A stretch of 64,000 bases of DNA, taken from NCBI GenBank assembly GCA_944391415.1, contig CALXTM010000002.1:1-64000 (forward strand), read 5' to 3'. Shown one piece after another: positions 2,969 to 10,115 of this stretch. Under the pieces are notes generated by a model, which searched no databases, was not told the DNA's origin, and worked only from the letters and a program-made list of their open reading frames with translations. How positions within the stretch are numbered: position 1 is the first letter of the stretch; each line of letters begins with the position of its first letter. The DNA comes from an uncultured Alphaproteobacteria bacterium (GTDB lineage Bacteria; Pseudomonadota; Alphaproteobacteria; RF32; CAG-239). Made by a program: the position numbers and the translations under genes.

Positions 2969-4117
2969 TTACGCAGCAAACAAATCTTTTATCTTATCAA
3001 AAAAGCTTTTTGATTCAGGCTGGCAAGAATCGTCTTGGCTGATATCTCGAAACTCTTGCAAAAGCTCTTTTTCTCGGGCGGACAAATTAACCGGCGTTTC
3101 AACCCGTAATTTGACAAACAAATCGCCACGTTTTTCCGAACGAACTATTGTCATGCCCTGACCTTTGATTTTGATAACCTGGTCTGACTGCGCGCCCGGT
3201 TTGATCTCTACCTCGAGTTTGGAGCCGTCTATTGAAGGAATTTCTATTTGTCCACCCAAGGCAGCACAACACATTGATATTGGGATACGAGTATAAAGAC
3301 TTGCTCCGTCGCGCTCATATAACTTATGTTCTTTGATGCTGACAAAGACATATAAATCGCCATTGGCACCACCACGAATACCAGCCTCTCCGGCACCTTC
3401 AATCCGCATACTGGTTCCGTCTTCTATACCGGCCGGAATCTTGACTTTGATGGTTTTGGGATGGTTGATGAAACCTTTGCCTTTGCAATCAGGGCAAGCA
3501 TCTTTGACTAAATGCCCGGTGCCTTTGCAATAAGGACAAGATTGCTCCACAACAAAAAATCCTTGCTGTAACCTTACTTTGCCTGTGCCGTTGCAGTGGG
3601 TGCAAGCCGGAGCCTCCGTGCCGTCTTTGGTGCCATGACCATGGCAGGTCTCACAGGTTTGCGTGGAGGAAAATTTGATTTCTTTTTCAACACCGCTGAA
3701 AGCTTCTTCAAGGCTTATGGACAAGTTATAACGAACATCTTGCCCTCTTTGGGCATAGCTCTGCCTGCGACCACGGCCACCGCCCATAAACTCAGAAAAA
3801 ACCTCGGAAAAAATGTCGGCAAAGCCGCCTGAGCCGCTGCCAAAATCAAAATTAAACCCACCAAACGGATTGCCGCCACCCATACCGCCTGCCGCAAAGG
3901 CCTGATGACCATAGCGGTCGTAGGCTGCACGCTTTTGCTCGTCTTTTAAGACCTCGTAAGCCTCGTTTATTTCTTTGAATTTGGCCTCGGCAATTTTATC
4001 GCCGGGATTGCGATCCGGGTGGTATTTCATTGCCAGGCGACGAAAAGCATGTTTTATTTCTTCACCGCTGGCTGTTTTTGATACCTCCAATATTTCGTAA
4101 TAGTCTTTTTCGGTCAT
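2969..4117 (-). CDS. dnaJ: Chaperone protein DnaJ
   Basis: Cytosolic Hsp40 that delivers unfolded proteins to DnaK and stimulates its ATPase. Domains in order: J-domain (residues 1-70) with the HPD tripeptide in KYHPDRNPGD; Gly/Phe-rich linker (~75-115); four zinc-binding CxxCxGxG units (CETCHGHG, CTHCNGTG, CPYCKGTG, CPDCKGKG); C-terminal substrate-binding domains. Length 382 is normal. It is not adjacent to dnaK: about 4 kb of opposite-strand sequence lies between them, and this gene has its own RpoH-type promoter upstream. Confidence 0.98.
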   Translation of the reverse strand: MTEKDYYEILEVSKTASGEEIKHAFRRLAMKYHPDRNPGDKIAEAKFKEINEAYEVLKDEQKRAAYDRYGHQAFAAGGMGGGNPFGGFNFDFGSGSGGFADIFSEVFSEFMGGGRGRRQSYAQRGQDVRYNLSISLEEAFSGVEKEIKFSSTQTCETCHGHGTKDGTEAPACTHCNGTGKVRLQQGFFVVEQSCPYCKGTGHLVKDACPDCKGKGFINHPKTIKVKIPAGIEDGTSMRIEGAGEAGIRGGANGDLYVFVSIKEHKLYERDGASLYTRIPISMCCAALGGQIEIPSIDGSKLEVEIKPGAQSDQVIKIKGQGMTIVRSEKRGDLFVKLRVETPVNLSAREKELLQEFRDISQDDSCQPESKSFFDKIKDLFAA

Positions 4118-4291: not shown

Positions 4292-4339
4292 ATGTGGTAT
4301 CTTTGAGATATCGTTATAAGCAACAGAAAGGTGGACATT

Positions 4340-4954
4340 ATGATTACGCCCGGTTGGCCAAAAGAAGTTTTGGACATTACTGAACTCAAAACAATTCTGG
4401 ATAGCAACAAAATTGACATAGCAGAAGATTTGGCTATTGTATTGTCACAGGACAAAAATACAGCCATGCCCAAGGGGCGGCGATATCAGTATGTGCGATT
4501 TGCTACCATCCTTGGGGCAGTCAATGTGCCAAATTCAAAATATAACAAAGATGAACGGGAAAAACACCTGAATAAACTGCGTCATTATTATGACCAAAGC
4601 TCTACCAATGCTTATATTAAACCTGAAACTGCCGAGTTTTATTGTAATTTTTTGAATGCACTTAAAACCACGCTTGAAAGGCGGCATCCTGGGATAAACT
4701 GGCCTGTGGCACAGATAAATAAACCCAAAGAAAAAACGGCAACAACCAGCCAAAAGAAACCCAGGACTCCCAAAGCGCCCAATAATCTTGAGGTTGTAAT
4801 CGACCGCTATAAAGTACTTAATCCATCTTGTCTGCAAGCATTATCCCCCAATGATTTAAGCCAAATATTGCACCAAGTCTTGGAGGCAAAAATTGATACC
4901 TTGGGAAAAGACACCAAGGCTAAAGACCTTTTGGTTAACCTGGTGGGCAATTAG
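4340..4954 (+). CDS. Unknown helical protein; probably the N-terminal part of the following gene
   Basis: 204 residues from ATG 4340, chosen over GTG 4331 because AAAGGTGG lies six bases before the ATG. Family not recognised. The sequence looks helical and soluble, with a Lys/Thr/Pro-rich linker around residues 130-150 (KPKEKTATTSQKKPRTPKAP) followed by a second small helical domain. The stop codon comes just after GGG at 4945-4947. Reading one base back there continues as VGQLEYALTVANEQSS and runs straight into the 5011 frame without a stop. This gene and the next are therefore most likely one coding unit of about 1,270 residues, interrupted by a one-base loss, a sequencing error or programmed slippage. 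Confidence 0.65.
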   Translation: MITPGWPKEVLDITELKTILDSNKIDIAEDLAIVLSQDKNTAMPKGRRYQYVRFATILGAVNVPNSKYNKDEREKHLNKLRHYYDQSSTNAYIKPETAEFYCNFLNALKTTLERRHPGINWPVAQINKPKEKTATTSQKKPRTPKAPNNLEVVIDRYKVLNPSCLQALSPNDLSQILHQVLEAKIDTLGKDTKAKDLLVNLVGN

Positions 4955-5010
4955 AATACGCCCTTACTGTTGCAAATGAGCAAAGCTCTTATCTTGACCA
5001 TGTACGCAAA

Positions 5011-8000
5011 TTGTACACCTATAAGGCAGGACAAAAACTTAGTCCGGAAATACAAAAACTTTATGTTTCATATATGGAAGATGTGGAAGATAGCGTCAAA
5101 AAAATCCCTGGATTTGATGTGACATATGATGAAATTCCGCTGCTTTATGAAGGAAGGAACATTCCGCAGCAAGCACCCGCGCCAGAGCCGCAACCAACAC
5201 CCTCGCTCGAGCCGCAAACAAGCGGCATCCGGCTTAACAGCTATACCTCGGATGAGTGGAAACAGATTTTGGACGGAAGCAAAACCGATGGTATTATGCC
5301 TGTCTTTCTGGAGCAGACAGCCAATTCTCTTCATTTGACCGAAGGATTAGAAATTATCTCTTTGAAAGAAATTTTGGGAAATAGTTTTCCATCCAATTTT
5401 GATAAATTGAACGCAGAAGAAAAAGAAAATGTTGTTCAAAAACTTAAAGAGAGCATGAACGCATCCCAAAAAGCAAGGTTTAATGTTTTGTTGACTGAAA
5501 AAGCACAAACTTTGGCCGAGGCTTTGCCGCCACACCAACTCGTGACTATGGTACGAGCAATTGATGATGAGCTTAAATCAAACAACGATAACCGGCAAAC
5601 CATTAACTTAAAAGCACAAAAAAATGTGTTGATTGCGGCCATGGCCGACAAAGTTAAAGGTGTGGCCTTAAAAAACATTGTGGTGGATGAAACCAATATT
5701 GCCGATGTTTATGACGGTGCCATGGAAATGCTTGAGTATTTGAGCAATAAAGAAAATCTTGCCGGAATCGAGCTTGAGGGCGAAGGCGAATTCTCGTTTG
5801 ATGATCTGGCAACAATGACCAAAAATACGCTTAATCAGCAAATTATATCTTATGATGAGATTTTTGGCCTGACAAACATCAAACCGGCTGATGCTAAAAA
5901 ACTGGAAGAATCTTTTGATGAGGCTTGGGATTTGGCTGAAAAAGCCGACCTTAACAATACAAATTGGCTTGATGAGGAAACCATTGCCAGATTGGGAATG
6001 ATTGAATTTGAAAATCCCGATGCCGATAAGAAAAAACAAACTTTTATTGAAACCATAAAACTCGAAGCTGCCAGAGGTGCAGCCGTCGCCGCTTATGGCA
6101 AAGGAAGGCAAGAATTGCTTTCCGAGCTTAAAACGCAATTGAACGTAGTGGCAAACAATCATATGCGCACCCTGCTTGCCACAGATGTTATTGCTAATTT
6201 GCCCGAAAACATTGCAAATAAAGAACGAGATCATAAAATTGCCTCAGCTGTTATGGCTTTGGTGCCTGGAAATTCGCCACTTAAAGTGAGTGATAAAGGG
6301 GCTATTGCTTATCAGGCGGCTGTGGTTAATAACCATGTCAGCTTTTTGAACCGTTTGGCCGGGAAAGCCCATCTTAATGACCGCTCGGCTAAAGTCTTGC
6401 AAAAAATGTATAGACCTTTGGCCAAAATTGATAAAACCTGCATTGCCAGATTTGGTAACAAATATTTGGTTGCGCGTAAATTTGGCAGCATGATGAAAAG
6501 AAATATGGCCTCACAGGCTATTAACCAAGCTTTGCGGATCGGTTGCAATACTGCCAGTTTGGCTTTGGGTGTTCCCGGACTTGGTTCGCAAATATATGCC
6601 GGTGTTTATGCCGCGCAGGCTTTAGCAAGGCTGACCAAAGCTTATGTTGAGGAACGCAAAGCATCTAAAGAAAAAGGGCTAAAATTCTTTGGCAAGTTCT
6701 TGGCTCAAAAATCACCCGAGATTTTGATGAGTGCCGCCTCTACCGCCGCTATATTTTTTGGCGGAGAAATCGCTCGCCTGGGAATGGAAAAAGTTGCCAG
6801 GTTTGGTATGATGGGAATAGGATTTACCATATCTGCAATAAAAGGGGCTAGGGCTAACCGAAAATCAGGCGAAAAATGGGGTAAGGCAATATCTAAGGCT
6901 CTGGCGAACTCGGCTGCCTCTACAGGAACCGCCGTTTTGACAGGTATGGGCATGGCTTGGGGAGTTAACCAGTTTTCTTCTTATGTAAACAATACATCGC
7001 TTGACTTATGGGGTGAGCATGGCACACGCCAACCTACCGCCGATGAATATAATGCCGACGACCCGACTTATAGTAAAACACCAATTACCGCTGATGAATT
7101 GAATGACTATAAAAATATGTCTCCTGAGGAGCTTAATGAACACGGAATTAGCAAAGATCCTATTGCCGCACAAAAGGCTCTTGAACTGGTTGACAAAAGC
7201 GATGAACAATTGGCTAACGATGGGATTATTCGCGAACAAACCAATGCCGAAGATACTAATGGCGTTAAGGTCGTAGACCAAGAGGCTTCGGCAAAATATA
7301 GCCAAAAGGCACTTAATAATGCCGAACGCTCTGTCAGGTATTGGACATCTGCTAATCCTGAGGTATATCAAGAAAACATGGCTGCTCTTGACAATGAAAA
7401 CAGTCCTTTAAGCCGTTGGAATGCCGAACATCCTGACCGAATAATTGATGCGCATCGCTTGGAGCTGATTGTGGCATATTCAGGTGGGCAGATGGTAGCC
7501 TCTGATGTTGATACGTTGCAAAACCACGTTGATGGTGATTTACACAATGAAAACCCTGTTGACGTAAAGGGCAATCATAAACTTTTTGGAGCCGGGTGGA
7601 TTGACACTTATGGTAAGGAGCTTAATATCTCAAACGAGGATATTTCGGTAATTGCATCTTTACACAACCCTGACGGAAGCATTGATATGTCAAAAATGAC
7701 ACCGGAGGTATTAGATGCAATTGAGAGAATTGATGCCCAAAACATTACTGTTCATAATGAAGTCGGCGATGTGGCAAGCACCAGAGATGATGCTCACCGT
7801 GACGGGATTTTGGACCGCAATGTGATGGTCGACGAAACCGGAAAGCATGTCCATAGCAATAACGGAGAAATGTTTAATTCTTATGCCAACGGCGAAACGG
7901 CAAAACATGTTACCCCAGAACAAGCACATTATGAAAAATTTGACCAATTTTCCAAAGTCGAACAGCATAGCTACATCCCGTTTACCGTTACGTTTGACCG

Positions 8001-8145
8001 GATTTGGAGCTCAACCCGAAAATTGTACCTTAACACTATTATGGGGGCAAACGGCAAGCATAAAGAAACAGTTACCAATACCGGAGAACATAATAAGCCT
8101 GCCGGTATAAAACCTATAGCAATGAATCAAACTCAACGTTCTTAA
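5011..8145 (+). CDS. Very large unknown protein with hydrophobic central region
   Basis: 1044 residues from the TTG at 5011. That start has no ribosome binding site, and the frame is open and sensible back to about 4939, supporting fusion with the 4340-4954 gene. Family not recognised. Visible parts: a Pro-rich linker (~residues 52-70, APAPEPQPTPSLEPQ); a long helical, charged region (~80-480); a Gly/Ala-rich hydrophobic region with several membrane-like stretches (~511-541, 571-592, 605-617, 635-655); and a hydrophilic, Asp/Asn/His-rich C-terminal ~390 residues. There is no signal peptide. The layout resembles membrane-inserting secreted proteins, but that is only an analogy. It is inserted between dnaK and dnaJ on the opposite strand and ends at a strong terminator. 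Confidence 0.75.
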   Translation: MYTYKAGQKLSPEIQKLYVSYMEDVEDSVKKIPGFDVTYDEIPLLYEGRNIPQQAPAPEPQPTPSLEPQTSGIRLNSYTSDEWKQILDGSKTDGIMPVFLEQTANSLHLTEGLEIISLKEILGNSFPSNFDKLNAEEKENVVQKLKESMNASQKARFNVLLTEKAQTLAEALPPHQLVTMVRAIDDELKSNNDNRQTINLKAQKNVLIAAMADKVKGVALKNIVVDETNIADVYDGAMEMLEYLSNKENLAGIELEGEGEFSFDDLATMTKNTLNQQIISYDEIFGLTNIKPADAKKLEESFDEAWDLAEKADLNNTNWLDEETIARLGMIEFENPDADKKKQTFIETIKLEAARGAAVAAYGKGRQELLSELKTQLNVVANNHMRTLLATDVIANLPENIANKERDHKIASAVMALVPGNSPLKVSDKGAIAYQAAVVNNHVSFLNRLAGKAHLNDRSAKVLQKMYRPLAKIDKTCIARFGNKYLVARKFGSMMKRNMASQAINQALRIGCNTASLALGVPGLGSQIYAGVYAAQALARLTKAYVEERKASKEKGLKFFGKFLAQKSPEILMSAASTAAIFFGGEIARLGMEKVARFGMMGIGFTISAIKGARANRKSGEKWGKAISKALANSAASTGTAVLTGMGMAWGVNQFSSYVNNTSLDLWGEHGTRQPTADEYNADDPTYSKTPITADELNDYKNMSPEELNEHGISKDPIAAQKALELVDKSDEQLANDGIIREQTNAEDTNGVKVVDQEASAKYSQKALNNAERSVRYWTSANPEVYQENMAALDNENSPLSRWNAEHPDRIIDAHRLELIVAYSGGQMVASDVDTLQNHVDGDLHNENPVDVKGNHKLFGAGWIDTYGKELNISNEDISVIASLHNPDGSIDMSKMTPEVLDAIERIDAQNITVHNEVGDVASTRDDAHRDGILDRNVMVDETGKHVHSNNGEMFNSYANGETAKHVTPEQAHYEKFDQFSKVEQHSYIPFTVTFDRIWSSTRKLYLNTIMGANGKHKETVTNTGEHNKPAGIKPIAMNQTQRS

Positions 8146-8152
8146 ATTAAAA

Positions 8153-8186
8153 GAAAAAGCCCCGCAGAAATCTGCGGGGCTTTTTC
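8153..8186. terminator. Bidirectional terminator between large unknown gene and dnaK
   Basis: Perfect 16-base stem: GAAAAAGCCCCGCAGA pairs with TCTGCGGGGCTTTTTC. A-runs and T-runs on both flanks serve both convergent genes. Confidence 0.9.
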
Positions 8187-8201: not shown

Positions 8202-10115
8202 TTATTTGACCTCTTCAAAATCAGCATCTACAACCTTTTCGTCTTTGGGCTGTTCCGAAGACGAACCGGCGTCAGCACCCTGAGCGGCACCTTGTGCCTG
8301 CGATGCCTGGGCCTGGGCTTTATACATCGCCTCGCCCAACTTCAGAGAGGCTTGCATCAAACTCTCGGTCTTTTCCTTGATGACAGATAAATCATCGGCT
8401 TCCAAAGCAGTCTTCAAGGCATTGAGTTCTTTCTCGATGGCCTCTTTTTCGGCGGCTGATATCTTGTCGCCGTTTTCTTTCAAGGTTTTTTCCGTGGTGT
8501 GAACCAAAGCCTCGGCTTGGTTTTTGGCCTCGACAAGCTCTTTCTTCTTCTTGTCGGCCTCGGCATTGGCTTCGGCATCTTTTACCATCTTTTCGATATC
8601 GGCATCAGACAGACCACCGCTGGCTTGAATACGAATAGCTTGCTCTTTATTGGTGGCTTTATCTTTGGCCGAAACGTTAACAATACCGTTAGCATCGATA
8701 TCGAAAGTAACCTCAATTTGCGGCATACCACGCGGTGCTGGCGGAATTCCTACCAAGTCAAATTGACCAAGCAATTTGTTGTCGGCAGCCATTTCACGCT
8801 CACCCTGGAATACTCTGATGGTTACTGCTGTCTGGCCATCTTCGGCGGTTGAAAATACTTGTGATTTGCGGGTCGGAATGGTCGTGTTACGATCAATCAA
8901 ACGAGTAAATACACCACCTAAAGTTTCAATACCCAAAGACAGAGGCGTTACATCCAACAACAATACGTCTTTGACATCGCCCATCAAAACACCGCCTTGA
9001 ATTGCAGCGCCGACGGCAACAACTTCGTCCGGGTTTACACCTTTGTGCGGCTCTTTGCCAAAAATCTCTTTAACTTTTTCTTGGACTTTGGGCATACGAG
9101 TCATACCGCCGACCAAGATAACCTCGCTGATGTCAGACGGCGAAACTCCGGCATCGGTCATGGCCTTTTTGCAAGGCTCTATCGTTCTTTCAATCAAATC
9201 TTCAACCAAAGATTCCAATTTGGCACGCGTTAATTTGATATTCAAGTGTTTCGGGCCGGTTGCATCGGCTGTAATAAACGGCAAGTTAACCTCGGTTTGT
9301 GTGGTCGAAGACAACTCTATCTTAGCTTTTTCGGCTGCTTCTTTCAAACGTTGCAATGCCAATCTGTCGTTCTTAAGGTCAATACCGGTCTCTTTTTTGA
9401 ATTCATCTGACAAATAGTTTACAATACGTTGGTCAAAGTCTTCACCACCCAAGAATGTATCACCATTGGTTGATTTTACTTCAAAGACACCATCGCCGAT
9501 TTCCAAAATAGAAATATCGAACGTACCACCACCAAGGTCATATACCGCAATGGTACCGTTGGTCTTCTTATCCAAGCCATAGGCAAGCGCTGCAGCTGTC
9601 GGCTCGTTGATGATACGCAAGACATCCAAACCCGCAATCTTGCCGGCATCTTTAGTGGCCTGACGTTGTGAATCGTTAAAGTAGGCCGGAACCGTAATAA
9701 CGGCTTTTTCAACCTTTTCACCAAGATAGCTCTCGGCATATTCCTTAATCTTTTGCAAAACAATAGCCGAAATTTGCGACGGAGCATATTTTTGCCCTTT
9801 GACTTCTACCCAAGCATCGCCATTGTCGCCTTCAATAATCTTGAACGGAACAAGGGCTTTGTCTTTGGCTACTTCAGGCGAATCATAGCGACGACCAATC
9901 AAACGTTTAATCGCAAACAATGTGTTTTCCGGATTGGTTACCGCTTGACGTTTGGCCGGGAAACCAACCAAGCGCTCCGTGTCGGTAAATGCTACCATTG
10001 AAGGTGTAGTACGCGCACCTTCAGAATTTTCCAAGACTTTTGCTTCTCCGCCTTCCATAACGGCAAAGCAGGAGTTTGTTGTACCTAAGTCTATACCAAT
10101 TACTTTATTGCTCAT
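8202..10115 (-). CDS. dnaK: Chaperone protein DnaK (Hsp70)
   Basis: ATP-driven cytosolic chaperone that works with DnaJ and GrpE. The 637-residue length is typical. The nucleotide-binding domain (1-~385) starts with [15 protein letters not shown] and includes [15 protein letters not shown]. The hydrophobic linker [15 protein letters not shown] leads into the substrate-binding domain and helical lid. The tail is Ala/Gln/Gly-rich and ends EEVK as usual. It is transcribed from a well-formed heat-shock promoter. dnaJ does not follow directly, which is unusual. Confidence 0.98.

Follow-up and report, generated by a model that had tools for sequence, protein, structure and literature searches.

A giant gene between dnaJ and dnaK, very probably a single reading frame broken by a net one-base change, and the exchangeable family to which it belongs

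Positions 4340–8145 of the 64,000-nucleotide stretch of DNA analysed here (the window) very probably form one gene on the + strand, encoding a protein of ~1,270 residues. The gene is interrupted at about 4949–4951 by a net one-base frame break that is private among the genomes searched and is very unlikely to be a decoding device. For annotation, the two window open reading frames (ORFs) should be handled as one disrupted gene. There is nothing unusual in the break as such. Following it up brought to light an unnamed giant-protein family; its alleles are swapped at a single chromosomal site, and the edges of the swapped DNA are sharp.

One gene read in two frames

Two fragments make up the gene. 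Fragment 1 (4340–4954, + strand) encodes the N-terminal 204 residues and ends with TAG 4952–4954. Its ATG at 4340 lies 5 nt downstream of a Shine-Dalgarno-like AAGGTGG (4328–4334, + strand), which is visible in the sequence itself. The initial annotation had this stop right, but the frame is better started at ATG 4340, which has AAGGTGG upstream, than at GTG 4331, which would give 207 residues. Fragment 2 (4939–8145, + strand) holds the remaining ~1,066 residues and is open in the second frame, where 1,044 residues can be counted from TTG 5011. That TTG had been described as the only start of the second frame and as lacking a ribosome binding site, and we agree: no convincing Shine-Dalgarno sequence was found before it or before the next in-frame starts at 5074, 5083 and 5119. 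TTG 5011 is not a credible start for fragment 2.

Homologues from related genomes read straight through the junction. The counterpart in genome G023 is a single uninterrupted ORF of 1,291 residues. By tblastn, its residues 4–206 align with window positions 4346–4951 at 52% identity (E 6e-69 for fragment 1), and its residues 207–1287 align with 4951–8127 at 53% identity. The two alignments, in different window frames, share one nucleotide and miss no residue, an agreement much closer than chance could give. The N-terminal part of the homologue in G002 likewise spans both window frames, and the N-terminal type of fragment 1 is present in both G002 and G024. More broadly, all 35 full-length homologues read (17 within the genus and 18 from other genera of the bacterial family, each with both ends inside its contig) are intact single ORFs of ~950–1,870 residues, in a sample that is not random, since members were taken by their rank in the profile search and such ranking is biased towards long ORFs. 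The window gene lacks this family trait and is a disrupted copy rather than a typical member. This homologue comparison had been proposed in the initial annotation, and its outcome bears out the central claim made there, a single disrupted gene of ~1,270 residues: relatives carry the gene uninterrupted, and homologues consistently carrying two genes were not seen.

The two frames could also be read as two genes, or as a protein that works as two separate chains, a reading to which we give almost no credence. N-terminal regions are exchangeable modules in this family, so a split is not absurd. Nevertheless, the two parts are fused in every full-length relative read, and the second part has no start signal. 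Moreover, the break does not coincide with the end of the N-terminal module but lies within it, and strong similarity to G023 and G002 continues beyond the break. No observation weighs against a single gene.

Decoding, mutation or error at the junction

A −1 frame change yields the long protein only within 4939–4954 (+ strand), given second-frame stops at 4921 and 4936 and the first-frame stop at 4952. Homology puts the break at 4949–4951, with the tblastn join at 4951. Across the junction homologues read ..AN/LEYAF.. or ..SN/IKYAF.., and they support a break at the Asn codon 4949–4951, where the protein would read ...VGN/LEYAL. The initial annotation had instead placed the shift at GGG 4945–4947, giving VGQLEYAL, a position that the homologues do not favour.

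Could the ribosome change frame by design? Programmed −1 slippage, producing both a 204-residue and a ~1,270-residue protein, was among the causes first suggested, and we now consider it very improbable. The shift does have the −1 direction, G_GGC at 4945–4948 is formally a Z_ZZN tetramer, and a G_GGA_AAA lies upstream at 4903–4909. The proposal falters on motif, stimulator and conservation. First, the productive interval 4939–4954 contains no X_XXY_YYZ heptamer, and its sole tetramer is G_GGC. Six tetramers stood out clearly from background in E. coli, and G_GGC was not one of them, despite the presence of a strong pseudoknot (Sharma et al. 2014, PMC4066793). Both candidate slip sites were rejected: a slip at G_GGA_AAA 4903 would hit the −1 stop at 4921, and one at GGG 4945 would depend on a tetramer that is not active in E. 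coli (PMC4066793). Second, no stimulatory structure emerged when the 100 nt downstream were tested for hairpin folding: their fold is no better than that of shuffled sequences (z 0.30, with 123 of 200 shuffles as good). Third, no homologue has a frame change at the junction.

Phase variation, an on/off switch of the gene operated by a reversible indel, is also highly improbable, although it too had been suggested. Outward-facing hypervariable genes are often phase-variable, and this locus is hypervariable. However, the junction at 4939–4954 contains neither homopolymers of four or more nor short repeats. The nearest runs, AAAA at 4906 and TTTT at 4929, both lie upstream of the productive interval, which leaves no repeat at the break for a switch to act on.

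Fragment 2 is open for 1,066 codons and retains 45–68% identity to G023 segment by segment; the break is therefore recent or unreal. We incline towards a recent, real indel. A consensus or assembly error, a sub-case of the one-gene reading in which the living cell has one intact gene, is quite possible, if somewhat short of probable. The weights we give to these two explanations are a judgement and were not computed. An error would agree with the absence of further decay in fragment 2 and with the origin of the window in a 31-contig draft assembly. It would also agree with the expectation that singleton frameshifts confirmed by homology (BLAST) are mostly sequencing errors (Antonov et al. 2013, PMC3711429), a lean opposite to our own. 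The window gene resembles those singletons in that its homology-confirmed break occurs in one genome only, with no recoding motif, and differs from them in coming from an unnamed family and lying at a hypervariable locus (PMC3711429). Against an error, homopolymers at the junction do not exceed three, longer runs at other places in the gene (A7 and T6) are unbroken, and the rest of the genome compared has few frame breaks.

That last point comes from a frame-break census of 808 kb of this genome against 1.07 Mb of G002, which covered 456 kb of orthologous coding sequence. Four candidate breaks emerged, comprising one clear case, two antisense artefacts and one candidate, at 12.9–13.4 kb, that overlaps a start region and looks like a start-extension overlap. 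The reverse comparison listed a similarly small number, three candidates. The window gene falls outside what the census filter (45% identity) selects; its break was identified through the comparison with G023. The clear case is an HD-domain gene at ~90.4–91.0 kb of contig C2 (90406–91031, minus strand). Across the 456 kb compared it is the only other clear break, so the assembly is not riddled with indels. Both clear breaks lie in genes that are not obviously essential, and this, together with the few assembly indels, leans towards real mutation. The gene is missing from close relatives, which shows that the cell can do without it and is consistent with a real loss. A scan across genome contigs found no second strain of the species, returning G023-, G015- and G016-type loci only. 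The broken HD-domain gene is split relative to a 203-residue G002 orthologue, has A5 and T4 runs near its break, and is directly preceded upstream by another HD-domain gene.

If the indel is real, translation from ATG 4340 would give 204 residues and then end at TAG 4952. Because fragment 2 has no credible start, neither the full protein nor its conserved core would be made. We infer that function has been lost and that the break is recent.

An unnamed family of giant proteins

The window gene belongs to an unnamed family of giant proteins that appears to be confined to one bacterial family. A profile built from 20 members found it in 86 of 153 genomes of the order and in 14 of 17 genera, weak partial matches counted. 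Within the genus, the profile detected it in 23 of 35 genomes. Outside the one bacterial family, about 380 genomes of the class yielded only two marginal matches.

A core of ~585 residues unites the members, accompanied by N-terminal parts that vary. In the window the core occupies 5230–6981 (+ strand), as delimited by profile search, alignment and an AlphaFold2 model, and Gly/Ala-rich hydrophobic helices lie at its C-terminal end. It was found in all 39 members searched as well as in the window, although one contig-truncated member begins later. Window positions 5230–6981 match positions 1–586 of the core profile model; that profile includes the window as one of its rows, and the pairwise identity of the window to G023 is the independent support for membership. 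The N-terminal parts ahead of the core range from ~55 to 780 residues. In blastp clustering, the first 180 residues gave 16 groups, but the last 420 all fell into one linked group. Pro-rich linkers occur in several members, as do Gly/Ala-rich hydrophobic helices. One other genus (L109, L110, L112 and L125) has a second large ORF of ~570–650 residues after the giant gene, and three of these four ORFs start alike.

The family has no detectable relatives in the libraries searched. The window pieces gave no match above cut-off in Pfam, NCBIfam, PHROGs or PADLOC, and domain searches with family members returned chance, low-complexity or single-member matches, with one exception. The member in G031 (L021:4114–7767) starts with a DnaJ J domain (PF00226, E 8e-23). 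This domain was found in none of the other members scanned, and the window pieces do not match it. Structure was no more revealing. PDB sequence profiles gave no convincing match, and the AlphaFold2 model of the core is nearly all-helical (mean pLDDT 77). Fold searches with this model and with one of the whole of fragment 2 (mean pLDDT 53) found no convincing match, which does not of itself prove a new fold. For the core, no Foldseek match reached E ≤ 0.001, and the best VIA-align hit had a Z of 7.2 over 104 residues with an rmsd of 3.2.

Allele exchange at the dnaJ–dnaK site and a possible role

The window gene has a position often seen in its family. Its divergent neighbour is dnaJ (2969–4117, − strand; from the ORF list), orthologues of which occur in 33 of 35 genomes of the genus, and its convergent neighbour is dnaK (8202–10115, − strand; from the ORF list and synteny). 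Between the giant gene and dnaK, a GC-rich hairpin followed by a T-run (8159–8180) resembles a terminator; it can be seen by reading the sequence and is absent from the pattern-scan list. Within the genus, the giant gene and dnaJ are usually neighbours on opposite strands. Not counting the window, at least nine genus genomes have the giant gene in the dnaJ–dnaK interval. In other genera, dnaJ or dnaK is nearby at 12 or more of 20 loci.

Genomes with nearly identical flanking genes differ sharply in what lies between them. G015 and G021 (L030 and L028) have DnaJ proteins that are 99.5% identical and DnaK proteins that are 99.7% identical. Their giant proteins share 34% identity overall, with 96% in the first 100 residues and 14–44% in the later 100-residue blocks. 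At the DNA level, identity is 95.6% to about codon 148, then undetectable within the gene, and 95.8% again from directly after the stop. Similarity between the window and G031 DNA likewise stops at 4306 and returns at 8174. Other genomes have replaced contents or none: G033, with a DnaK 99.5% identical to that of G015, has a different small gene (an ORF of ~140 residues, L029) in the interval; G020 (L039) has an unrelated 287-residue ORF that by eye is like HAD phosphatases; and in G010, with a DnaK 99.5% identical to that of G023, the gap is empty. Given such sharp DNA boundaries, and genes that differ or are absent in close relatives, the dnaJ–dnaK site swaps or loses its gene while the flanks stay.

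Such exchange patterns usually reflect diversifying selection by phages, competitors or the host. We infer that these proteins are directed at other cells, phages or the host. The organism is an alphaproteobacterium that presumably inhabits the gut, a habitat on which nothing in this reasoning depends. Tentatively, it may comprise cell-facing or conflict/recognition proteins under diversifying selection, a guess drawn from analogy with VARTIG (PMC8416519) and polymorphic toxins (PMC3482391). More speculative is a fuller picture in which the dnaJ–dnaK gap is an allele-exchange site for undescribed giant self-recognition or antagonism proteins, close relatives swapping almost all of the coding region between flanks more than 95% identical, with the window allele recently inactivated. 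The site and the lineage make the idea of diversifying selection directly testable. A literature search for a dnaJ–dnaK giant-gene locus found nothing.

Known systems resemble the family in part. VARTIG of the Thermococcales, for which a conflict or self/non-self role was proposed, is also a large lineage-restricted protein with a hypervariable locus and recombination between lineages (Makarova et al. 2021, PMC8416519). Unlike VARTIG, the giant family has no detected immunoglobulin domains, is bacterial and sits beside dnaJ/dnaK, and in the window the giant gene is not followed by a series of variable genes. In addition, VARTIG exchanges only its C-terminal domain, whereas the giant family exchanges nearly the whole protein (PMC8416519). 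Polymorphic toxin systems share with it large modular proteins diversified by recombination (Zhang et al. 2012, PMC3482391). In the window pieces, the Pfam, NCBIfam, PHROGs and PADLOC searches recognised no trafficking or toxin domain above cut-off. In contrast to these systems, the family keeps its C-terminal 420 residues as one linked homology group while its N-termini vary (PMC3482391). No immunity gene lies directly downstream of the window gene; the next gene is dnaK, on the opposite strand and 57 nt away. J-domain proteins (PF00226) offer a third comparison, through the G031 member and the location between dnaJ and dnaK, although neither the window protein nor any other member tested contains such a domain. 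The locus and this single J-domain fusion suggest a chaperone-linked role as an alternative to one in conflict or recognition.

Elsewhere in the window, positions 25–1941 hold a flagellin-like ORF of 638 residues, with a Flagellin_N and a weak Flagellin_C end and a large central insert.
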